Origin: Alphaproteobacteria bacterium
GTDB taxonomy: Bacteria; Pseudomonadota; Alphaproteobacteria; UBA6615
Reading direction: 5' to 3'
DNA: 64,000 nucleotides
NCBI GenBank assembly: GCA_039980135.1
Contig: JBDXCV010000003.1
Location: 558,001 to 622,000, forward strand
Below are positions 6,137-36,250 of this stretch, piece by piece. How positions within the stretch are numbered: position 1 is the first letter of the stretch; every line of letters begins with the position of its first letter. Position numbers and translations under genes: made by a program. The notes below the pieces were generated by a model. It searched no databases and had not been told where the DNA came from. It worked only from the letters and a program-made list of their open reading frames with translations.

Positions 6137-6778
6137 CTAGCTCAGATTGATCGCGACGGAAATGCGCGTACCGTCGCCGAAATAGGGTCGCACGGCGTGG
6201 GAGACCCAGGACGGGAACATCAGCACGGTGCCGGGCTTGGGGCTGATCGACTCGCTGGCACCGAACGCGGCACCGCCGGGCACATTGGGCACCAGTTCGG
6301 GCCTGAACATCGCCGGCGCGACGCCGCGCGGATCCTGCAGTTCGAACTGTCCGCCCAGCGAGGGGTCGCCGGCGGCGCCGCCATCGTCGACATAATACAC
6401 GGCAGACCAGACGCAGCCCGGATGGGTGTGGAACTCGTTGCCATGTCCCGAGCGGTTGACGTTGGCCCAGGCGTTCATGCGCCAGGTCTGGGGGGCCGGT
6501 TTGCCGTGGCGGTCGATGGTCAGGGTGTCGGCCATGTGACGTACGAAAGAAAGAAGATAATCCGCCGCGTCTCCACCCCAGTCCGCCATGTCCCAGCTCG
6601 ATTGCCAGCCGCCGAGATTGGAATGGGCAGTGGACGGCTCCTGTTCGGCGCGGGCCAGGATGGTCTCGCGCAGCGCAGCGCTGATGCGTTTGTCCTCGGG
6701 CAGGGTCGCGATCGCCACTGGTGTGGCGAACAACGGCTGGATATCGATCTTGGTATTTGGTGTGGCGTCCGCGGCCAT
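6137..6778 (-). CDS. Putative 2-oxoglutarate-Fe(II) oxygenase (TIGR02466 type)
   Basis: A 213-residue protein whose core fits a double-stranded beta-helix oxygenase. The iron ligands are likely His in FHTHPGCVWSAVYYV (around 117-119) and His194 in WVSHAVRPY, with an Arg (RISVAINLS) near the C-terminus for 2-oxoglutarate. The family has no established substrate; some members may hydroxylate peptides. I chose ATG 6778 because GGGAGA precedes it and the extended frame upstream lies inside tsaD. It is sandwiched between tsaD and gpsA on the same strand. Confidence 0.85.
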   Translation of the reverse strand: MAADATPNTKIDIQPLFATPVAIATLPEDKRISAALRETILARAEQEPSTAHSNLGGWQSSWDMADWGGDAADYLLSFVRHMADTLTIDRHGKPAPQTWRMNAWANVNRSGHGNEFHTHPGCVWSAVYYVDDGGAAGDPSLGGQFELQDPRGVAPAMFRPELVPNVPGGAAFGASESISPKPGTVLMFPSWVSHAVRPYFGDGTRISVAINLS

Positions 6779-6804
6779 GATGATTGTCTCCCGGCGCGCG
6801 CAGC

Positions 6805-7842
6805 TTATTCCGCGGCGTGCAGTTCGGCCAGCGGCCAGCGCGGGCGCGGCCGGAAGTCGAGCGGGTCGGTGGCTCCCGTGCGCAGCCGCTCGACGCCCGC
6901 CCACGCGACCATCGCGGCGTTGTCGGTGCACAGCGCCGGCGGCGGGGCGACCATGGAGGCGCCCTGTGCCTTGCCGACCGCGGTCAATGCCGCGCGCAGC
7001 GTCTTGTTGGCAGCCACGCCGCCTGCCGCCACCAAAATCGGCGGCACGTCGGGGTGGCGCGCGGTGAATTCGGCCAGCGCATGTCGGCACCGGTCGGCGA
7101 GGACGTCGGCGACGGCGGCTTGGAAACCGGCGGCGAGGTCGGCGGCGTCCTGCGCAGTCGGGTCGCGGCCAAGATCGAGTGCCGCCTGTCGGACGGCCGT
7201 CTTCAGGCCGGAAAACGAAAAATCACAGCCCGGCCGGCCCTTGAGTGGCCGGGGCAGCCGGAAGCGTTCCGGATCACCGTCGAGCGCCGCGGCCTCGACG
7301 GCGGGGCCGCCGGGAAAACCGAGGCCGAGAAGCTTCGCCGTCTTGTCGAAGGCCTCGCCGACCGCGTCATCCATCGTCGTGCCGAGCAGCACATGACGTC
7401 CGACATCCTCGACGATCAACAACTGGCAATGGCCGCCCGAGATCAGCAGCAGCAAATACGGAAAAGCCACATCGTCGGTGAGCCGCGCCGTCAGCGCATG
7501 GGCTTCGAGATGATTGACCGCGATGAAAGGGAGATCGCGCGCTACCGCGATGGCCTTGGCCGTCATCACCCCGACGATCACCCCGCCGATCAGACCCGGT
7601 CCGCCGGTCGCGGCGATGCCGTCGAGCATGTCCAGATCGATGCCGGCCTCGTCGCGTGCCCGCGCGATGATCGAATCCAGATGCTCGAGATGCGCGCGTG
7701 CGGCGATCTCCGGGACCACGCCACCGAACGGCCGGTGATCGTCGAGTTGGCTGAGCACGACGTTCGACAAGATCGACCGGTCGTCGGACACGATCGCGGC
7801 CGCCGTCTCGTCACAGCTGGTTTCAATTCCGAGGACAAGCAT
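6805..7842 (-). CDS. tsaD: tRNA N6-adenosine threonylcarbamoyltransferase
   Basis: Transfers the threonylcarbamoyl group to A37 of ANN-decoding tRNAs. The 345 residues begin [14 protein letters not shown], the canonical TsaD N-terminus. [12 protein letters not shown] and the metal-binding VNHLEAH motif follow, then the conserved [10 protein letters not shown] and FPGGPAVE segments. Two further in-frame ATGs lie at 7851 and 7860. I prefer 7842 because family members start at this point and no better ribosome site marks the others. It diverges from hemC across ~100 bp, so that gap must hold both promoters. Confidence 0.96.
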
Positions 7843-7942
7843 GGGGATCATATACCCCATTTGAAGGGCGGCGTCGCACCGTCACGAGCGCGCCATCGAG
7901 AAGCGGTTTTGCAATCGGCGCGCATGCGGCTATGAGTTTTAC

Positions 7943-26164: not shown

Positions 26165-27106
26165 TCATTCTTGGTCCGGCGTATCGGCGCCGGCCATCAT
26201 GCTCACGATCTCCGCCCGCGGCCAGTTCGGCGCGACCATTTGCATGAAATCATACATGTACTCGCGCAGAAACGTTTCGGGATGGAGGATGATCTGCGCT
26301 TTCAGAATGCCGAAAAGGTCGGTCGCATCGACGGCCTCGAGCGGTTTGTCGAGCTCGGCGTCAAAGGCGACGGCCGGGACCACCGCAACGCCCAGGCCAA
26401 TGCGAACATAGGCCTTGATCACTTCGGCGTCGGTCGCGCTGATGACGATCTCGGGCGCGAGGCCCTCGCGTTCGAAGGCGCGTTTGACAGCCATTCCGCC
26501 CGGGTAGGAAGCATTGTAGGAGATGATCGGGTACTGGCTGATCTGCTGCAACTTCAGCGGCTGCACGTCGAGTAGCGGATGATCCGGTGGCATAACAAGC
26601 GAACGCCCATACTCGTAGATCGGCAGCTCGACAAGCTCGTGCTGCGTGTTCGGCAGTTCGCTCGTGATGCCGATATCCGCACGTCCCGATCCGACCAGCT
26701 CACCGGTATGTTCCGGGTCTATCTGCAGCAGGCTCAATCTCACCTTGGGATAGATTTTGCGGAATTTCTCGATGATCGCCGGCAGGACATAGCGCGCGTG
26801 CAGATGTGTGGTCGCGATGACCAGTTCGCCGGCGTCGGTATAGGAGAAGTCGTCGCCCAGCCGCCGGATGGCCTGCACGTCACGCAGGATCTTGCGGGCC
26901 AGTGCCACGACAATTTCGCCCGGTTCGGTCACACCGTCGATCCGACCTTTTCGGCGGCGCAGGATCTCGAACCCGAGCTCCCCCTCGAGCAGACGAATCT
27001 GCTTGCTGACGCCGGGTTGCGACGTGTTCAGGACGTTCGCCGCACGGGTGACGCTTAATCCCTGGTCAACGATCTCACGGAGAAAAAGGAGTTGCTCGAA
27101 GCGCAC
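26165..27106 (-). CDS. LysR-family transcriptional regulator, CysB/Cbl-like
   Basis: A 313-residue regulator starting at GTG 27106 with AAGGAAGG upstream. The N-terminus RFEQLLFLREIVDQGLSVT, followed by TSQPGVSKQIRLLEGELG, matches CysB (KLQQLRYI...TSQPGISKQ) better than generic LysR proteins. The C-terminal effector domain (ADIGITSELPNTQHELVELP, VRIGLGVAVVPAVAF) is complete. CysB-type proteins sense sulfur metabolites, but here it lies inside a catabolic gene train, so a cluster-specific effector is likely. A large inverted repeat precedes the start. Confidence 0.92.
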   Translation of the reverse strand: MRFEQLLFLREIVDQGLSVTRAANVLNTSQPGVSKQIRLLEGELGFEILRRRKGRIDGVTEPGEIVVALARKILRDVQAIRRLGDDFSYTDAGELVIATTHLHARYVLPAIIEKFRKIYPKVRLSLLQIDPEHTGELVGSGRADIGITSELPNTQHELVELPIYEYGRSLVMPPDHPLLDVQPLKLQQISQYPIISYNASYPGGMAVKRAFEREGLAPEIVISATDAEVIKAYVRIGLGVAVVPAVAFDAELDKPLEAVDATDLFGILKAQIILHPETFLREYMYDFMQMVAPNWPRAEIVSMMAGADTPDQE

Positions 27107-27245
27107 GTAATGCCTTCCTTGCTGCACGCTGGAAGGCAGAAGCTTAACGACTGTAAATTCATTACACCAGCCGATCACGGGCGGCGGATGGCGACATCAC
27201 CTGCAGCCGTGTTTCAACCGGCTGAGCGCCGCCGCGATGAAAGCA

Positions 27246-27392: not shown

Positions 27393-28049
27393 TCAGTCTT
27401 CCTCACGCATCGTGTAGGTGAGCAGGGTGGTGTCGGTCACGAATTCGATGTCGGCGCGTGCATCCCCCGTGTCGGCATAGATGAAGTCCCATACCCCCAG
27501 ACTCTCCCCGCTGACCTTTATTTCGCCATCCTGCACCAACGCGGCCAGGAAGACCGGGCTGTGGGTCGCGCCGGCGGGAAACCGCATCGTCTCGACCAGC
27601 AAGCGGCCGGCGCCATGATCGACCTGTGTTTTCATTTTGCTTCCGTCCGGTCCGTCCACCCATGGCAGGTCGACATGCTGGATCAGTCGGTAGTGTTTTT
27701 CGGACGACAGTTCCTCGACCTCGGAATGGAAAAAACTACCCTGGAAGGCCGAAATGAGGTTGCAGCCGAGCGGATAGTGCAGCGGGCCGTGCGGTTCGTT
27801 GCTCGGGCCGATGACCACATCGAGCGGGCCGAGCGTGAGGCCATCGACAATCGCCGTGTTCTTCAACACAGTCGTCGCGTGAGTCCCGGCATGGACGTGA
27901 CGCGGCTCGGTCGATCCGAACGGATAGTCGATCAGCCTGATGACCAGCTCCGTTTCGTCGTTGGCATAGTAAAGCCCGGCCTTGCTCAACCAGTTATCGA
28001 CATTCTTCCTGTCTTCCCAGGGGATGCTATCCAATTTGACAATATTCAT
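27393..28049 (-). CDS. Cupin-fold protein (paralogue of 18020-18679)
   Basis: A 218-residue protein closely related along its whole length to the plus-strand cupin at 18020. Shared blocks include DYPFGSTEPRHVHAG, DVVIGPSNEPHGPLHYP and SLGVWDFIYAD. AGGAGCGACGT precedes ATG 28049, and the start overlaps the CMD stop as ATGA, so translation is coupled to that redox protein. Function is unknown beyond a probable metal-binding cupin fold; the His-rich EPRHVHAGTHATTV segment may provide ligands. Confidence 0.83.
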   Translation of the reverse strand: MNIVKLDSIPWEDRKNVDNWLSKAGLYYANDETELVIRLIDYPFGSTEPRHVHAGTHATTVLKNTAIVDGLTLGPLDVVIGPSNEPHGPLHYPLGCNLISAFQGSFFHSEVEELSSEKHYRLIQHVDLPWVDGPDGSKMKTQVDHGAGRLLVETMRFPAGATHSPVFLAALVQDGEIKVSGESLGVWDFIYADTGDARADIEFVTDTTLLTYTMREED

Positions 28050-28771
28050 ACGTCGCTCCTCATGTTTGCGTGTTGCCTGGTGCCGTCGGTTTGCGCCGCG
28101 GCAGGTTGTATTGAGTCCCGGTCAGCCTGACCGGATGGGGAAAACCGGCCCGCGAACGCTTCGACATCGTCGATCGACAGCGACGTGTCCTTCACGGCAT
28201 CCCATTGTTTCTTGTTGATTTCGAGAGGCTCCAATTCGGTCCAGAAGGAATCGTTGAGGCGATTGATCATGTTGAACATGGCCGACGCCACCGTGACCTC
28301 GACGATCTCCACGTCGCTACACAGGCGCTTCAGTTCGTCCCACAACGCCTTGTCGCGCCGGGATGTATTGAGCGTCACGGCCTCGGCCCAGGCGATGACG
28401 GCCTTTTCCTTGTCGGTGAACAGCGAACTTTCCTTGTAGGCGTCGCTGTCGAGCAGGGCGCACTCGTCGGGGATGATACCCAGTCCCTGGCCGAACACCG
28501 ACGTGTGCTCGGTGCAGTATTCGCAGGCGTTGGCCATCGAGGTCTTGATAATGGCCAGGCTCCGCAGACGCGGGTCTGATGTCGCACCCAGTGCGGGCTG
28601 ACGCACGGTCGCGACAAGGCCGAGAATCCAGCGTGCGAAGTAAGGATTATGTTGGGCGAGAATGCGCTGCAGGTTGGCCGTACGGCCCAGCAGCAGGGCA
28701 CAGGCATCGAGCACTTCCTTGCCAACGCCGGTGGCGTCGTCATCCGAAAGCATTTCCAGGCGCTTTGGCAT
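28046..28771 (-). CDS. AhpD/carboxymuconolactone decarboxylase-family protein (CxxC form)
   Basis: A 241-residue CMD-family protein with the AhpD-like redox motif C-E-Y-C-T-E-H in KTSMANACEYCTEHTSVFG. In AhpD the two cysteines and the following His reduce partner proteins or peroxides. The all-helical body (EKAVIAWAEAVTLN, VASAMFNMINRLNDSFW) matches the family. Start 28771 is marked by AGGAGCGCATT; the upstream extension is shadow. It is the cysteine counterpart of the UGA-containing gene at 31755-32414, which aligns to it with about one gap through the active site. Confidence 0.88.
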   Translation of the reverse strand: MPKRLEMLSDDDATGVGKEVLDACALLLGRTANLQRILAQHNPYFARWILGLVATVRQPALGATSDPRLRSLAIIKTSMANACEYCTEHTSVFGQGLGIIPDECALLDSDAYKESSLFTDKEKAVIAWAEAVTLNTSRRDKALWDELKRLCSDVEIVEVTVASAMFNMINRLNDSFWTELEPLEINKKQWDAVKDTSLSIDDVEAFAGRFSPSGQADRDSIQPAAAQTDGTRQHANMRSDV

Positions 28772-28843
28772 AATGCGCTCCTGTGATGACCTGCCGCCCG
28801 CGGGAATCACCCGCGAGCGGCGTGCCGACAACGTGAAAAAGGC

Positions 28844-30016
28844 CTAGTAGGCGCCGCCATGCGATGCGATAGCAATCCTGCAGGGCGCCGAAGACTTGTT
28901 GCTCCACGCATGGTTGGTGCCGCGCTGAACCACAACATCTCCGGCTTTTACCGACACCGAGCCCGTGTCCAGGATCAGGTCGACCTCTCCTTCCAGGATG
29001 AAGCAGAAATCGAATGCTTCGACTTTCTGCATGTACGGATGCGGCGCCGACGGCGAATAGGTCGATGCGCCGGGCGAGCCCATGGACTCGAAAAATGCCG
29101 CGACATCGTCGGGACCGACCTTGCGTTCCCAGCTCGCGTCCGGCGGAAAGGTCACGACACGACAGACGGAACCGGTTTTGGGTGGCTCGATTGTGTGGGG
29201 CAAATGCAGGGTTTCCAGCATCATTTTCGCGGGCGACTGCTCGATCACCCACAGCCGCGCTGAGGCGTAACCGGGCCGTGCCGGGTCAAAGCGCATATCG
29301 GGCGCCGGTCCGTCGGCGATGATGCTCGACCGCCCCTGTTCACGGTCCGCGACGACAATTCGGCGCGCCGGTTTGACGCCATCGGGGAACTCAAACCCCT
29401 CGGGCAGCTCGACCACAGCTTCGTCGCTCTGGACGACGCCCAGATCGCCGTCCTCGAACACGGCGTCGATCATGTCGAAACCCATGATGCAGCCGAGCCG
29501 TGGAGACGACCAGTTGTGCCAGGAGCCGACCTGGATGGCGATATCGCCAGGCTCCATTAGCAGCATGCCTTCGTCCGTGGTCAACTCGCGTTCACCGGAA
29601 AGCATGATTCCGAAATCGATCGACTGGGTCTTGTGCATGCCGGCGGAGTAGGAGTTCTTCCCGCCGCGATCCCAGCTGCGCCCGCTGGGGCGTGGTGTCG
29701 GTTCATGGAAATCGTGAATGTCGGGATCGTTTGCCGGATCGTAATCCGCCTGACGTGCCAGTGTTTCAACAACGCGCACATGCCCGCCGCCGCGCGGCCC
29801 GGGAAAATCATATGGCGTATCGCCCTCATCCGTCGTCCCCGAAAGCGCAAGCGGCGCGCCATCCCAGACCCAGATGTTGGTGTTGTGGGTGCGGCTCGCG
29901 AGCGCGGTGTTCGTGGCGTTGGGCGCGGGCCCGTCCCAGACAACCGTCGAGCGACCCTGCTCATCGGTCCCGGTCACCACGCGGCGGATGGGTGTCATCG
30001 GCAGGTCATTTGACAT
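28844..30016 (-). CDS. Two-domain cupin protein (fused form of the 36.2-38.0 kb cupins)
   Basis: A 390-residue protein made of two ~190-residue cupin units. The N-terminal unit (IRRVVTGTDEQGRS, MHKTQSIDFGIMLSGE, VGSWHNWSS) resembles the separate proteins at 36865 and 37435. The C-terminal unit (ARRIVVADREQGRSS, LHLPHTIEPPKTGSVCR, RGTNHAWSNKSSAPC) resembles the protein at 36251. It sits between the ThDP enzyme (13-bp gap) and the CMD gene. A complete classical HxH...E...H cupin metal motif is not obvious, so catalysis is uncertain. Confidence 0.85.
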   Translation of the reverse strand: MSNDLPMTPIRRVVTGTDEQGRSTVVWDGPAPNATNTALASRTHNTNIWVWDGAPLALSGTTDEGDTPYDFPGPRGGGHVRVVETLARQADYDPANDPDIHDFHEPTPRPSGRSWDRGGKNSYSAGMHKTQSIDFGIMLSGERELTTDEGMLLMEPGDIAIQVGSWHNWSSPRLGCIMGFDMIDAVFEDGDLGVVQSDEAVVELPEGFEFPDGVKPARRIVVADREQGRSSIIADGPAPDMRFDPARPGYASARLWVIEQSPAKMMLETLHLPHTIEPPKTGSVCRVVTFPPDASWERKVGPDDVAAFFESMGSPGASTYSPSAPHPYMQKVEAFDFCFILEGEVDLILDTGSVSVKAGDVVVQRGTNHAWSNKSSAPCRIAIASHGGAY

Positions 30017-30029
30017 GGTCTTGCTCCTA

Positions 30030-31706
30030 TCAACCGATCGGCAGCGGCGCTTGCGCGTCGAGGTCGGTCACAACATCAATGATTGTCGGCCGCCGGGATG
30101 CGATTGCCTTCTCCAGTGCCGGCGCAAATTCGGACGGCTTTTCGACACGGAGACCCTGCGCCCCGAAAGTCTCGGCGACTTTCGAAATGTCCACGTCGGT
30201 CCAGACCCACAGCTCTTCGGCTTGTTCGGTCTGCTTGCCGCCATAGACCTGGTCATAGCCGAGCTTGGACTGGTTGCCGGAATGGTTGTTGTTCACGACG
30301 ATCACCGCCGGGATATTCCAGCGAACCATCGTTTCGATTTCGGCGACGTGATAGAGGAAGCCGCCGTCGCCCGTGAAACAGACGACGGGCCGGTCCGGAA
30401 CCCCGCACTGCGCCCCGATCGTCGCCGAGAAGGCCCACCCCAGGTGACCCGCACAGCGGACGTAGCTTTGCGTCGGCTTCTGCAAGTCGTACATGCCGCC
30501 CATCCACATCCCTGCATGGCCCGTATCGACGACGACGAATGCGTCATCGGGAAGGTGCTTGGACAGATCGCTGCAGATGCGCTCCGGCCGTGTCGGCGCC
30601 TCTTCGGAGGACAGGAGTTCGCTATACTGCTGATACCAGCCGCCCACATGCCCGCGTGCCTGGCCGATCCAGTTCTTGCGGCTCGCTGCGGTTCCGGCAT
30701 CGGCATGCTCCACCATGCGCTCGACCGTGACCTTGGCATCACCGAGAACCGCCGCGTCGAGCATGTAGTTGCGGCCCAGTGCTTCCGGGTCGATATCGAT
30801 CTGGATCGCCGGGGTGCCGAGCTTGGGAACCTTCCAGAAATGGGTGGTCATCCCCCCGGTCTCGGTGCCGATGAAGCAAACGAGATCGGCTTCCATGACG
30901 ACCTGGTTCGCGGAACCGCGCGAATAGGTGCCGACGACGCCCACGCTCAACGGATGGGTGCCGGGAATCGAATCCTTGCCGTTGAGTGATGTTGCGACCG
31001 GGATCTGCAACTTCTCCGCCAGTGCGACCACGGCCGGGCCGGCCTCGGACCAGCGCACACCGCCGCCCGCGACGATCACGGGCCGTTTCGCCGCCTGCAG
31101 AACCGCGACGGCCTTCTTTACGCTCGCATCGTCGGGTTCCGGCCGAAACGGCGGGACTTGCGAGAACTGGGCTTCGACGAGCGGCTCCATATCCGCTTCC
31201 TCGACGTCCATCTGTCCCTCGTTGCCGCGGAACTGAAGATGCACCGGTCCGGGCGTTCCCGACACCGCGACCCGGAAAGCCTGCCGCACCATGTCGGGGA
31301 ACCGTTCCACGGAATCGACCGTGGCGTTGAACTTTGTCACGGCATCGAACACCGGTACGTCGTCATTCTGCTGATAGACCTTGCGGAATTTCGTGGCGGG
31401 GTCTCGTCCGCCGGTCATGGCGATCACCGGCGAATGGGCCAGCCAGGCGTCTCTCAGACCGGCGGCGAGATTCAGCGCGCCGACCGTCTGCGCCATGCAG
31501 ATGCCTGGCCGACGCGACGCCCGTGCATAACCGTCCGCCATGTACGCCGCGGACTTTTCGCCGTGGGTACGCACCCGACTGATCGAGGTCGATGCTTCGA
31601 GCTCGACCATGGTTCTGCGCAAGATCGCGGGCACATGGAATATGTGGGTGACCCCGTAATCTTCGAGCATTCGCGCCATTGCCTGGGCGCCGGTCATCTT
31701 TGCCAT
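30030..31706 (-). CDS. Thiamine-diphosphate-dependent enzyme (acetolactate synthase/decarboxylase superfamily)
   Basis: A 558-residue enzyme with the three-domain ThDP layout: a PYR domain with catalytic E50 in RTHGEKSAAYMADGYAR, a central domain (RPVIVAGGGVRWSEAG), and a PP domain with the ThDP/Mg motif GDGGFLYH...VVNNN. The family includes acetolactate synthase, benzoylformate decarboxylase and sulfoacetaldehyde acetyltransferase; sequence alone does not choose between them. It would cleave or form a C-C bond next to a carbonyl. The position between a CMD-Sec gene and a bicupin ties it to the catabolic cluster. Confidence 0.92.
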   Translation of the reverse strand: MAKMTGAQAMARMLEDYGVTHIFHVPAILRRTMVELEASTSISRVRTHGEKSAAYMADGYARASRRPGICMAQTVGALNLAAGLRDAWLAHSPVIAMTGGRDPATKFRKVYQQNDDVPVFDAVTKFNATVDSVERFPDMVRQAFRVAVSGTPGPVHLQFRGNEGQMDVEEADMEPLVEAQFSQVPPFRPEPDDASVKKAVAVLQAAKRPVIVAGGGVRWSEAGPAVVALAEKLQIPVATSLNGKDSIPGTHPLSVGVVGTYSRGSANQVVMEADLVCFIGTETGGMTTHFWKVPKLGTPAIQIDIDPEALGRNYMLDAAVLGDAKVTVERMVEHADAGTAASRKNWIGQARGHVGGWYQQYSELLSSEEAPTRPERICSDLSKHLPDDAFVVVDTGHAGMWMGGMYDLQKPTQSYVRCAGHLGWAFSATIGAQCGVPDRPVVCFTGDGGFLYHVAEIETMVRWNIPAVIVVNNNHSGNQSKLGYDQVYGGKQTEQAEELWVWTDVDISKVAETFGAQGLRVEKPSEFAPALEKAIASRRPTIIDVVTDLDAQAPLPIG

Positions 31707-31754: not shown

Positions 31755-32414
31755 CTAGGACTTCGAGGTCGTGCCGCCTTCTTCTTCATGGTTCCACCAG
31801 CAGTCGCGCATATAGGCGACATAGTCGGCAGGATCGATCTTCACCGACTTGGTGAACTTCTCCATCACCGGCGCGTCCTCGATATCGATCTGCAGGCTGT
31901 CGGTGAACCGGTTCCAGAAATTGAAGAATCCCGAAATCATCGTGATCTCCACAATCTGCGCGGAATTGAAATGTTCCTTCAGTTCCGGCATCGCCTTCGG
32001 GTTCTGGCCGAAATACGTCTTCTCGGTCAGCACCTCGGCCCACTTGATCGCCGCCTTTTCAGCCGGCGTAAAATGATCGGATGACTGGAAGTCCCCTTCG
32101 AGCGCCTCAACCATAGAATCTTCAAAACCCAACCCCCGACCGAGCGTTACGTTGTGACTGATTCAATGGTTGCAGCCGTTCAGCATGGACGTCTTGAGGA
32201 TGATCAGTGCCTTGAGACGAACGGGCAGATTCTCGGTGATTTCCTCGCGCAACAGCGGCACGTTGAAACCGAAAACAGCCTGCGCCAGCTTCGGCGAATG
32301 GGCCGCGACACGGATGGCGTTCGCCACCCGCCCGTACAAGACCCGGTTGTGCTTGAACAGACGTGCCACGGGGCCCGTGGCTTCCTCGTCCGTTATGTAT
32401 GGCAGTTGAGCCAT
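31755..32414 (-). CDS. AhpD/CMD-family selenoprotein (CxxU), read through in-frame TGA
   Basis: One open frame of 219 residues if the TGA at 32163-32165 is read as selenocysteine 84. Before it the frame reads IILKTSMLNGCNH; after it, ISHNVTLGRGLGFEDSM and 120 more residues to a normal stop. The result, C81-N-H-U84-x-x-H87, is the AhpD redox motif with Sec in place of the second Cys. The paralogue at 28046 has CEYCTEH at the same place. AAGGAGGAG lies before the ATG. A hairpin immediately 3' of the TGA fits a bacterial SECIS. AhpD-like CxxU selenoproteins are a known class. Without read-through the gene would give only an 83-residue fragment lacking the active site. Confidence 0.88.
32122..32157 (-). 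promoter_or_regulatory. Candidate bacterial SECIS element
   Basis: On the minus strand, 32157-32142 pairs with 32137-32122: 16 stacked positions, 13 paired and 3 single mismatches. The apical loop is GGTC (32141-32138). The loop begins 21 nt after the TGA. In E. coli fdhF the SECIS loop also carries GGUC at a similar distance. A G at the loop start and this spacing fit known bacterial SECIS rules. Confidence 0.8.
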
Positions 32415-32546
32415 TGAGGTTCTCCTCCTTAGCTTGGGGAACGATAAAAAACTGAGTTTACGAGGCCGCGAACCTGCGCGGCCATGGCCTGTCCGGCCGA
32501 TGACCGGCGACGTCGCGGCTCTCGAACTGTTTCGGCATCATGCGTG

Positions 32547-33836
32547 TCAGAGCTGAGCCGGCAGCCAGAGTGCCAGTGCCGGGAAGAAAATCAGCAATAT
32601 GAGACGAAGAATGTCGGAAGCGAAAAACGGCATGATTCCGGCGAAGATGGTCGACAGTTCGACATCCTTGAGCATGGCTTTCATGACGAACACGTTGATG
32701 CCGACCGGCGGCGTAATCAGGCTGATTTCCGTCGCCACCACAAGGAAGATCCCGAACCAGATAAGGTCGATTCCCATGGCGCTCACGATCGGCACGAAGA
32801 TTGGCACCACCAGGAGAATCATCGCCAGTCCCTCAACGAACATGCCCAGGACAATGAGAATTCCGAGAATGACGAATATTGCAAACGTCGGGCTCGCGTC
32901 AAAGCTGGTCACAAAATCCGTGATGACGAAGCTCACGCCGGACAGCTGAATGAACTGATTGAGCGCCAGCGCACCGAAGATCACGGTAAACAACATACCC
33001 GTGGTCTTTCCCGCGTCGTAGAGCGACAGGAACAGGCTGTGCCATGACATCCGCCGCCGTCCGACCGCGAACAAAAGCGCGCCCGAGGCCCCCATCGCGC
33101 CAGCTTCGGTCGGGGTAAAGACCCCGAACATGATTCCGAACATGATCATCAGGAACAGGGCGACCACACCCCAGACCCGCCCGAGCGTGCGTATCCGATA
33201 GCGCCAGCTGCTGCGTTCACCTGCCGGACCGCTATCGGGGCGAAACGCCACGATGAGCTTGATCACGCCGATATAGAGAATAACGGTCAGGATGCCAGGC
33301 ACGATGCCCGCGACGAACAGCTGGCCAACATCAGATTCGGTCAGCAGGCCGTAGACGATCAGGGCATTGCTCGGGGGAATAAGAATTCCCAGTGTACCGC
33401 CTGCCGCGATCGTGCCGGCCGCCAGACTGTCCGAGTAATTGTAGCGGCGCATCGAAGGCAGCGCGACTTTGGCCATGGTGACAACCGTCGCCACCGAATT
33501 GCCCGAAACCGCCGCAAACCCTCCGCTGGCCGCGACTGTCGACATGGCCAGGCCGCCCCTCAGATGTCCGAGCCACGAATATGCCGCGTCATACAGGTCG
33601 TCTGATAAACGCGCCTGGGATACGAACGCTCCCATGAGCAGGAACAGCGGCAGGACCACGAAACCCGGTGCAATAGCGATGTCGAAAATGACAGTACCGA
33701 TGCCGTACAGGGCGATGTCCATGCCACGCACGGTCGCCGTGCCGAAAAAGCCGACGAGCAGCATGGAGAAACCCAGTGGCACACGGGCCAGCAACAGCAG
33801 CAGCAGCGCTGCCATCCCAATCGAAACTTCAAACAT
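32547..33836 (-). CDS. dctM: TRAP transporter large permease subunit
   Basis: A 429-residue membrane protein with about a dozen helices, the DctM large subunit that couples solute uptake to the sodium or proton gradient. FEVSIGMAALLLLLLARVPL at the start and the internal AVSGNSVATVVTMAKVALPS and AGTIAAGGTLGILIPPSNAL segments are hallmarks. It overlaps dctQ by 8 bp. Gene order is dctP-dctQ-dctM-CMD(Sec) on the minus strand, so it should import the cluster's substrate, probably a carboxylate. Confidence 0.95.
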   Translation of the reverse strand: MFEVSIGMAALLLLLLARVPLGFSMLLVGFFGTATVRGMDIALYGIGTVIFDIAIAPGFVVLPLFLLMGAFVSQARLSDDLYDAAYSWLGHLRGGLAMSTVAASGGFAAVSGNSVATVVTMAKVALPSMRRYNYSDSLAAGTIAAGGTLGILIPPSNALIVYGLLTESDVGQLFVAGIVPGILTVILYIGVIKLIVAFRPDSGPAGERSSWRYRIRTLGRVWGVVALFLMIMFGIMFGVFTPTEAGAMGASGALLFAVGRRRMSWHSLFLSLYDAGKTTGMLFTVIFGALALNQFIQLSGVSFVITDFVTSFDASPTFAIFVILGILIVLGMFVEGLAMILLVVPIFVPIVSAMGIDLIWFGIFLVVATEISLITPPVGINVFVMKAMLKDVELSTIFAGIMPFFASDILRLILLIFFPALALWLPAQL

Positions 33837-34365
33837 TGGGGTTCTCCGGCCTGTGGACTGCGTCGGTATCCTGTCTCAGGAGGCGAATGAAGTTTCGTAT
33901 CGAGTAGACCGTGGCAATCATCGCCAACACGGAAAAAACCAACGAAAAGGGCCAATTGTAGAAATCGATATTCTCGTGAAACGTATTGTTGCCGTACGAG
34001 TGGACGGTCACCCTCATCAACCGCTCGGCAATGAACCCCAGCGCGCCGATGCTCACGATGTAGACGAAGATACTCTGCACTTTTCGCGCACGACCGGTGA
34101 TGAAACGGTCCAGCAAGCCAACCGTAATATGTTCATCCTCGCGGCAGACGTTGATCAATCCGCTGAATATTGTCAGGCCGAGGATCATCCCGATGACGGA
34201 AATTCCCCAGGAAAGCGGCGCGCTGAAAAGATAGCGCAGCGTCACATCGACGGTGCCGAGAAGCATCATCGAACCGATGAATATCGCGACCAGAAAATTC
34301 AGTGGCCGCCATCCATCCTTGGTCGGATCCGGCGCTTCTAATGGGTCTTGTTCGTTGTTTTCCAT
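33829..34365 (-). CDS. dctQ: TRAP transporter small permease subunit
   Basis: A 178-residue four-helix protein with helices such as LNFLVAIFIGSMMLLGTVDV and FSLVFSVLAMIATVYSIRNF. This is the size and topology of DctQ, which bridges the binding protein and DctM. The N-terminus carries an acidic, proline-containing leader (MENNEQDPLEAPDPTKDGW). Part of this 5' region has degenerate copies in the gap between dctQ and dctP. It overlaps dctM by 8 bp. Confidence 0.9.
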   Translation of the reverse strand: MENNEQDPLEAPDPTKDGWRPLNFLVAIFIGSMMLLGTVDVTLRYLFSAPLSWGISVIGMILGLTIFSGLINVCREDEHITVGLLDRFITGRARKVQSIFVYIVSIGALGFIAERLMRVTVHSYGNNTFHENIDFYNWPFSLVFSVLAMIATVYSIRNFIRLLRQDTDAVHRPENPNV

Positions 34366-34411
34366 GAATAAAAGTCCCCACCCTGACGGCTATTTTTCGT
34401 TTGGGCCGATG

Positions 34412-34644
34412 AGGATGGCGGTCAGGCACTCGGTACCGCCATTCTGATCGGTCCGAATCTGGCGGTTCAGACCAACTCTTCTTGATTGATTAGCCCGGTT
34501 CTCGGCTGCCGGTGGTTTCCGGTTATTTGTCGAGCCGACTTTACAGAACCGATGCGGATGGCGGCCGGAACACAAGTGGCCGCCATCCTTCTTCGGTTGG
34601 ATCAGGCGAATTTGCTCTCCGGATCAATCCGCAGAGCAAATTCG
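34412..34644. repeat. Repeat-rich dctP-dctQ intergenic region with three hairpins
   Basis: Three strong hairpins occupy this gap. One pairs 34412-34422 with 34435-34445 (one G-T). A perfect 11-bp stem pairs 34556-34566 with 34578-34588. A perfect 12-bp stem pairs 34607-34618 with 34633-34644, just past the dctP stop. The text around 34548-34606 resembles the dctQ 5' end (34271-34330) and again 34405-34460, so the gap looks built from decayed copies spaced ~140 bp. Confidence 0.75.
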
Positions 34645-34655
34645 GTGCTGACCGG

Positions 34656-35702
34656 CTATTTCTTCTCGGCCTGCACGGCTTTCAACTGCTCGTTGAAGTA
34701 CGCCAGGGCAGCCTTGCCATCGACCCCGCGGTTCGCGGCTTTCTCAAGCCATTGGTCGGTGTACTTCGCCGTGATCTGCTTGACCTCGGCAGTCATCTCC
34801 GGGCTTGTCGGGTGAATCTTGACGCCGTTTGCCCGCATTTTCGCCAGAGCATTCACGTTGCCCTCGTCCCAGCGGCCACTGACATTCCGCGTGAGCGCCT
34901 CTCCGAGATACTTGTCCATGATCGCCTGGTCATCGGCGGAAATGGATTCCCACTTCTGAATGTTCAGAATCGGCGTCCAGATCAGGGAGACGAACGCGCC
35001 GGGATACTCCACCCCGTAGTTCAGGAACTGATCCACCTTGAGAACCGCGGCCAGGGCGGCAGAGCCGGTCATGCCGTCAACCACGCCCTTGGATACCATC
35101 GGGAAAATCTCGGTGGCGAGCGAGGGGATCGCCGCGGCGCCGAGATCCACGAAAATGTCCTTGGCCAGACCGTTACCGCTGCGCAGCTTCAAGCCCTTGA
35201 TATCGGCAACCGAGTTGATCGGCTTGTCGATGGTGAAGATCTGCTCACCGGTATAGGTGTAGGTCGCGAGGAGCTTGGTGCCTTTGTATTCACCGGCCGC
35301 CTCGAAATGCTTCTTGTAGGTCCGCCAGCTGGCGACGCCCAGTGCCGTTGCCGACGGGTTGTGGCCGGTCAGACGACCGATATCCATCAGATGCAGGCGA
35401 TTCCGCTCGAAGCCCGCATGGATATACGCCGCATCGACAAGACCGCTGGTCACATGATCCCAGTTACGCGCCGGCGGGGCGACCGCACCCGGCGTGAATT
35501 CGAAAACGACCCGGCCTTCGGTGTCGCGTTCGACATTCTCTTTCAGCCAGTTCCAGCCGAGGTTGTTGGGATAGGTGGCCGGCGCGAAGATGTGGACGAG
35601 AATTTTCGTCTGCGCCGAAGCCGGCGTCGGTACACCAGCCGATGCAACCAGGCCGGCAGAGAGCGCCGCGGCTGCAGTTAACAGTTTAATTGAGCGTTTC
35701 AT
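34656..35702 (-). CDS. dctP: TRAP transporter substrate-binding protein
   Basis: A 348-residue periplasmic DctP-family protein. The N-terminus MKRSIKLLTAAAALSAGLVA followed by PTPASAQ is a clear signal peptide, cleaved probably after ASA. Segments such as ADIKGLKLRSGNGLAKDIFV and IFPMVSKGVVDGMTGSA are typical, and the Arg in LKLRSGN is usually the carboxylate-binding residue. Start 35702 is supported by GAGGAGG upstream. It heads the minus-strand unit; the shared element copy 2 lies 258 bp upstream. Confidence 0.94.
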   Translation of the reverse strand: MKRSIKLLTAAAALSAGLVASAGVPTPASAQTKILVHIFAPATYPNNLGWNWLKENVERDTEGRVVFEFTPGAVAPPARNWDHVTSGLVDAAYIHAGFERNRLHLMDIGRLTGHNPSATALGVASWRTYKKHFEAAGEYKGTKLLATYTYTGEQIFTIDKPINSVADIKGLKLRSGNGLAKDIFVDLGAAAIPSLATEIFPMVSKGVVDGMTGSAALAAVLKVDQFLNYGVEYPGAFVSLIWTPILNIQKWESISADDQAIMDKYLGEALTRNVSGRWDEGNVNALAKMRANGVKIHPTSPEMTAEVKQITAKYTDQWLEKAANRGVDGKAALAYFNEQLKAVQAEKK

Positions 35703-36250
35703 TTGTCGTTTCCTCCTCGTTTCGTTCGGGCGTTCTTTTTGGAACGCTTCCTTGGACATTTCGTTCTCATTGCTACTCGAAAACCTTCATCCGATAAAAC
35801 TCGTCAGACAAACACACCGGTGCCGAATGTTACCGAACCCTTGAAAAATGGCGACATTGCGAAGTTTCCGTCCCGGTGACGCAGGGTGTGCATAACCCGA
35901 CGCACCAATCCCAAATCGTCTCACCATAGAGGCTAGAGGCCGTTTGGTATTCCTGATACGAATTTATTTTCATGGTCCCATTCCATTTGGTTATATGAAA
36001 GTTCGGCCGGGAAGTACCGGAAAACCGGGGGCTGAAACCATGTCTTTGCCGGGCGATGTCCGGCGGAAACCACCAGTTGAATATATTGCCCGGATGGCCC
36101 CGGACCCTGCCTGTCACGCGGGTCGATTTTTCGTACCGATGCTGCATCCGGCTTCCCGGCGCGCAGCCGGGTTCCGCACCGTGCGTACAGCTCGGCTATC
36201 GGGTGTCTTGCGTGGCGGGAAAGCGCATTGCCCTTCCGGGCGCCCGAACG
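35703..36250. other. 548-bp intergenic region upstream of dctP
   Basis: It contains the shared element (35960-35994) in a locally A/T-rich stretch and a short GC hairpin near 36150-36170 (CCCGGC/GCCGGG). I see no convincing gene. The ~105-codon minus frame here has no ribosome site and no recognisable protein features. The region probably holds the dctP promoter and the end of the cupin operon transcript. Confidence 0.5.
35960..35994 (-). promoter_or_regulatory. Shared upstream element, copy 2
   Basis: GAATTTAT, 20 bases, TGGTTAT on the plus strand, identical in both words and spacing to 26065-26099. It lies 258 bp upstream of dctP. The 20-bp middles differ, which argues for conserved contacts rather than a copied fragment. 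Confidence 0.5.

Follow-up and report, generated by a model that had tools for sequence, protein, structure and literature searches.

Selenoproteins with a CxxU motif in a CMD or AhpD-like domain have been in print since 2005, and surveys of Sargasso Sea and GOS data as well as a 2026 review describe them (PMC1088965, PMC2398784, PMC13188914), which bears out the statement of an initial annotation of the present DNA that AhpD-like CxxU selenoproteins are an established class. The described groups (PF02627 CxxU; TIGR01926/COG2128 CxxU; NF041238; NF053654), among which TIGR01926 corresponds to what the review calls AhpD-like selenoproteins, share the CMD domain and the CxxU motif with the gene reported here. 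A UGA followed by a bacterial SECIS, the existence of Cys homologues and, for many members, a marine origin are also common to both.

In AhpD, the proton relay consists of Glu118, Cys130, His132, Cys133 and His137. The AhpD-like protein PA0269 has invariant residues Cys48, Cys51 and His55, with Glu36 at the relay position.

The gene analysed here lies on the minus strand of a 64,000-nucleotide stretch of an alphaproteobacterial contig (the window). Its features are as follows:

31755..32414, minus strand: predicted CMD/AhpD-like selenoprotein gene, 219 residues and a TAG stop, with Sec84 from UGA
32163..32165, minus strand: in-frame TGA (UGA), codon 84, predicted Sec, the second residue of C81-x-x-U84
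32424..32430, minus strand: Shine-Dalgarno-like AAGGAGG 5' of the ATG, seen directly in the sequence
32130..32149, minus strand: putative SECIS core, a stem around the GGUC apical loop (32138-32141), which starts 21 nt after the UGA
32116..32164, minus strand: extended SECIS-like hairpin, predicted fold with z -3.1 to -4.0

Translation of 31755-32414 gave 220 codons with an ATG start, a final TAG and a single internal TGA at codon 84; the frame holds no further stop or frameshift and can be aligned over its whole length with most of the 30 other loci. This agrees in every detail with the initial annotation, which had described one minus frame of 220 codons interrupted only by TGA 32163-32165, the TGA standing for the second redox Cys (C81-N-H-TGA-I-S-H) before 135 sense codons, and a paralogue at 28046 that reads CEYCTEH. 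An automatic annotation would split such a gene or label it broken. According to the analysis described below, codon 84 is almost certainly decoded as Sec in a functional CMD-fold protein. In the proposed mechanism, Sec-tRNA(UCA), made with the help of SelA and SelD, would be brought to codon 84 on the ribosome by SelB, which would bind the GGUC hairpin immediately 3' of the UGA. The product would be a full-length thiol-redox enzyme of 219 residues with the CMD/AhpD fold and the redox pair Cys81-x-x-Sec84.

The gene is part of an operon-like run with the following neighbours:

34656-35759, minus strand: TRAP solute-binding-type gene, matching DctP-type NCBIfam models
32547-33836 and 33829-34365, minus strand: TRAP large and small membrane subunits, assigned by sequence and gene order (TRAP genes together span 32547..35759)
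30030..31706, minus strand: ThDP-dependent enzyme (acetolactate synthase / glyoxylate carboligase superfamily), the next operon gene
28844..30016, minus strand: double-cupin protein, a conserved operon neighbour
28046..28831, minus strand: CMD paralogue of the same run, with Cys in its motif (CEYCTEH)
27393..28049, minus strand: protein that matches no Pfam or NCBIfam model, whose homologue adjoins the second CMD selenoprotein gene of the genome

The order TRAP transporter, CMD-Sec gene, ThDP enzyme, double cupin recurs in G004 (locus L089) and G012 (L018/L090), with extra genes interspersed. Orthologues of the ThDP enzyme are 94 % (L089) and 88 % (L018) identical and stand beside orthologous CMD-U genes; the closest PDB entries to this enzyme are BbmA, glyoxylate carboligase and acetolactate synthase. 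Because the run combines TRAP uptake, a ThDP C-C lyase/ligase and cupins, the CMD-Sec gene probably works within a single module of uptake and catabolism, where its product would either catalyse a step or render a reactive intermediate harmless, and we infer that the run is co-expressed. At the end of the run lies a LysR gene of the CysB family (26165-27178; 349 bits to PRK12684, under the cut-off). We dropped this CysB-type regulator as a hint of sulfur metabolism, as it was too weak.

The read-through protein matches the Pfam domain CMD (PF02627) with 35.6 bits against a gathering threshold of 23, and the matched residues 56-127 span the TGA. Scores for the peroxidase-related enzyme model TIGR01926 (42.1 bits, curated cut-off 81.8), NF053654 (47.2, cut-off 310) and NF041238 (18.8, cut-off 175) all stay below the curated cut-offs, which places the protein outside these three subfamilies. 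In the predicted fold (mean pLDDT 79.7), AhpD-like proteins and the debrominase Bmp8 were matched about equally well. With AhpD of M. tuberculosis and PA0269 (2o4d, 2ijc, 7xw1) the window protein shares the all-helical CMD fold and the two-helix hairpin that bears the redox motif, and in both M. tuberculosis AhpD and the window protein a His precedes the second redox residue. In contrast to AhpD, Sec replaces the second Cys, Ala69 stands at position -12 from the first Cys, where classical AhpD has the relay Glu (or a His), and the His follows residue 84 at +3 instead of +4; this His and an Asn at +4 are both invariant in our alignment. The initial assignment to the AhpD family thus stands at the level of fold and superfamily, but the Glu at -12 and the His at +4 are absent.

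Bmp8 (6ohi, 6ohj) aligns with the window protein over nearly its full length (profile 12-185, 56 bits), and the two agree in the spacing C-x-x-C/U-x-x-H, which Bmp8 realises as CMYC-KS-H; neither protein has a Glu at -12 from the first Cys, and both have a Lys at -13. Bmp8 differs in having Cys at the position of Sec84, and its sequence identity to the window protein is low. Judged from these residues, the active-site spacing (CxxU-xx-H, no AhpD Glu) is a better match to Bmp8 than to AhpD. A rival reading accepts the Sec decoding but takes the enzyme for the Sec form of a reductive dehalogenase like Bmp8 and not for one of peroxidase type. We consider this reading unlikely: the pairwise match is weak (38.8 bits), the fold comparison does not favour Bmp8 over peroxidase-related proteins, the genes beside the window gene are not recognisable as halogenation or other halogen-metabolism genes, and the activity of Bmp8 is taken from the PDB title and a review. 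The more specific proposal of a Sec-dependent, Bmp8-like reductive dehalogenase in a TRAP/ThDP operon that serves the breakdown of a halogenated compound is somewhat less probable still. If true, such an enzyme would be a bacterial, fold-unrelated counterpart of the thyroid deiodinase.

The most likely reaction is therefore described more broadly, as thiol/selenol redox chemistry of the CMD superfamily, because the protein has Ala69 and the His at +3, and Bmp8 likewise has the +3 His and no Glu. Peroxidase-like chemistry, taken alone, has about an even chance, and the label 'AhpD peroxidase' is not established. Within the preferred thiol/selenol chemistry, the selenolate of Sec84, aided by His87, would attack an electrophilic substrate (peroxide-type or similar); Cys81 would resolve the product via a selenenylsulfide, which cellular thiols would then reduce.

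Sec decoding depends on dedicated machinery, and the search for selA, selB, selD and tRNA-Sec suggested in the initial annotation returned a gene for each. The genome (3.76 Mb, 98.8 % complete), which has the window and the Sec machinery on one contig, encodes a tRNA-Sec with anticodon TCA (71 bits), SelB (467 bits) and SelA (583 bits), the selA gene overlapping the start of selB. A SelD domain (281-284 bits, cut-off 125 bits) is fused to a pyridine nucleotide-disulfide oxidoreductase domain; Ndh-SelD fusions of this type are mentioned in PMC2398784. SelD is the least certain member of the set, since the fusion also matches TIGR04369 'fusion_not_SelD' with 472 bits, under its cut-off of 700. 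Among the relatives that carry the TGA, selB was found in every genome tested and tRNA-Sec in all except the draft G023 (84 % complete).

Directly 3' of the UGA, the transcript is predicted to form a hairpin (-16.7 to -17.9 kcal/mol) with a 4-nt GGUC apical loop 21 nt downstream, which fits the bacterial SECIS model as quoted in PMC13188914. The z-scores of the fold lay between -2.7 and -4.0 for three stretches whose ends coincide with the hairpin or lie close to it; a stretch with more 3' sequence gave -0.9. In most relatives the stem has 7 bp without interruption. Across 21 diverse TGA genes it is 92 % paired with double-sided changes at three pairs, and its covariation score was reached by none of 500 shuffles. 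Here the stem consists of 3 bp, a G.G mismatch and 4 bp: in the clade of the window gene, Gly (GGG) replaces Ala (GCG) at codon +10, which creates the mismatch in the upper stem, so that only three pairs directly support the loop. The extended lower stem showed no covariation in an 8-sequence clade alignment and rests on energy prediction.

In our judgement, the strongest single fact for a SECIS is the choice of the Gly codon in the loop. It is GGT in 40 of 42 TGA genes versus 5 of 31 Cys genes with Gly at this position (Fisher p 1e-12, a value that overstates independence because the genes share ancestry), while the amino acid is the same in the TGA and Cys genes compared. For other TGA genes, the z-score of single-sequence folding was often unremarkable, and the argument for a SECIS therefore rests on the shared stem together with the codon use. 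An Rfam scan of the gene at a relaxed threshold gave matches at chance level only. The covariance model R1 found the three CMD TGA genes of the genome and nothing else significant, a result that is not independent, as R1 was built partly from these genes.

A scan of genome contigs yielded 31 loci, to which 60 related genomes were added before deduplication. The initial annotation had proposed to look for Cys or UGA at the column of codon 84 in homologues, and precisely these two were found: 42 genes have TGA, 33 have a Cys codon (TGC/TGT), and nothing else occurs. The TGA is kept in the same-genus G004 (87 % identity), in G012/L018 (80 %) and in all of six further family genes at 64-72 % identity. 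In the tree, the 28 TGA genes that are orthologous fall into a single well-supported group adjoined by Cys genes, and three changes between U and C sufficed for 79 rows, as counted by a quick method with some long rows unsure. One Cys-type CMD homologue (L083; G023 C73:776-1405) has one TGA and one TAG elsewhere in its frame and is possibly a real pseudogene or the product of assembly errors.

Reading of the UGA as another amino acid, for example as Trp by codon reassignment or by programmed near-cognate readthrough, would likewise give a full-length protein. We regard it as very improbable: Cys is the sole alternative in homologues and Trp never occurs, the genome has a tRNA-Sec, and the gene bears the SECIS signature. 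In addition, TGA is the stop codon of the adjoining upstream gene (32547-33836), which implies that UGA still terminates translation in this genome.

In comparison with the same-genus orthologue (L061), dN/dS was 0.10 on either side of the UGA; with L018, the values were 0.08 before and 0.17 after. Selection at the protein level downstream of the UGA implies that this part is translated. A pseudogene, in which a CMD gene of the Cys type had acquired a nonsense mutation, would look alike in a single sequence, as one base change turns TGC into TGA, but it has next to no probability given TGA at the same codon in so many distinct homologous genes, purifying selection equally strong behind it, a frame otherwise free of stops and frameshifts and a SECIS kept through synonymous-codon choice. 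A TGC/TGT codon misread in sequencing or assembly, the outcome that the initial annotation had set against its own reading and one that the many relatives with Cys at this column might suggest, is just as improbable, since the same TGA is present in the separately assembled G004, G012, G018, G019, G007 and G015 and also in numerous marine MAGs. All three alternatives, a pseudogene, a sequencing error and a reassigned codon, were thus rejected on conservation, selection, the SECIS and the continued use of TGA as a stop. The reading of TGA as Sec84, put forward in the initial annotation, is in turn supported by the SECIS, the synonymous-codon constraint, covariation, purifying selection and the Sec machinery.

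The window gene has company in its genome. Among twelve CMD-type matches, three have one in-frame TGA, in all cases at the same motif position. The second such gene (L097:7316-7939; G000 C3:1000315-1000926, plus strand) reads CQH-TGA, adjoins a homologue of the protein at 27393 and lies near TRAP genes; the third (L098:17222-17830; G000 C9:87221-87823, plus strand) reads CFY-TGA and shows the GGUC hairpin signature as well. An in-frame TGA is also present in two GrdB/PrdB-like genes, in the UxxC contexts VPV-U-PQC and VPV-U-PAC. These genes are located at L109:1399-2640 and, on the reverse strand of the locus, in L108, and one stands beside the selD fusion gene. No in-frame stop interrupts the best genome match to formate dehydrogenase alpha (TIGR01591), which was therefore not seen as a Sec gene, and a search for the UGSC family gave no match in this genome or in control genomes. 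With at least five UGA-containing redox genes encoded, three of them CMD-type, the Sec system appears to be kept in use.

In marine Rhodospirillales-type MAGs, we observed two divergent CMD-type genes close together, both with TGA at the redox position (L020, L022, L024, L026, L030, L032-L040, L042, L048). In L022, a GrdB/PrdB-like TGA gene (6667-7899) comes after the CMD pair.

Taken together, these comparisons indicate that 31755-32414 adds a well-supported CxxU selenoprotein to a known class, outside the curated subfamily cut-offs. The contrast in the SECIS-loop codon between Sec and Cys homologues provides a clean natural test of SECIS constraint. A TRAP/ThDP/cupin operon is not described in the available passages of the surveys and the review on CMD-like selenoproteins. 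The function of these proteins is left open by the surveys, and the conserved run of TRAP uptake, ThDP enzyme, cupins and CMD-Sec gene offers a concrete setting in which to find it.
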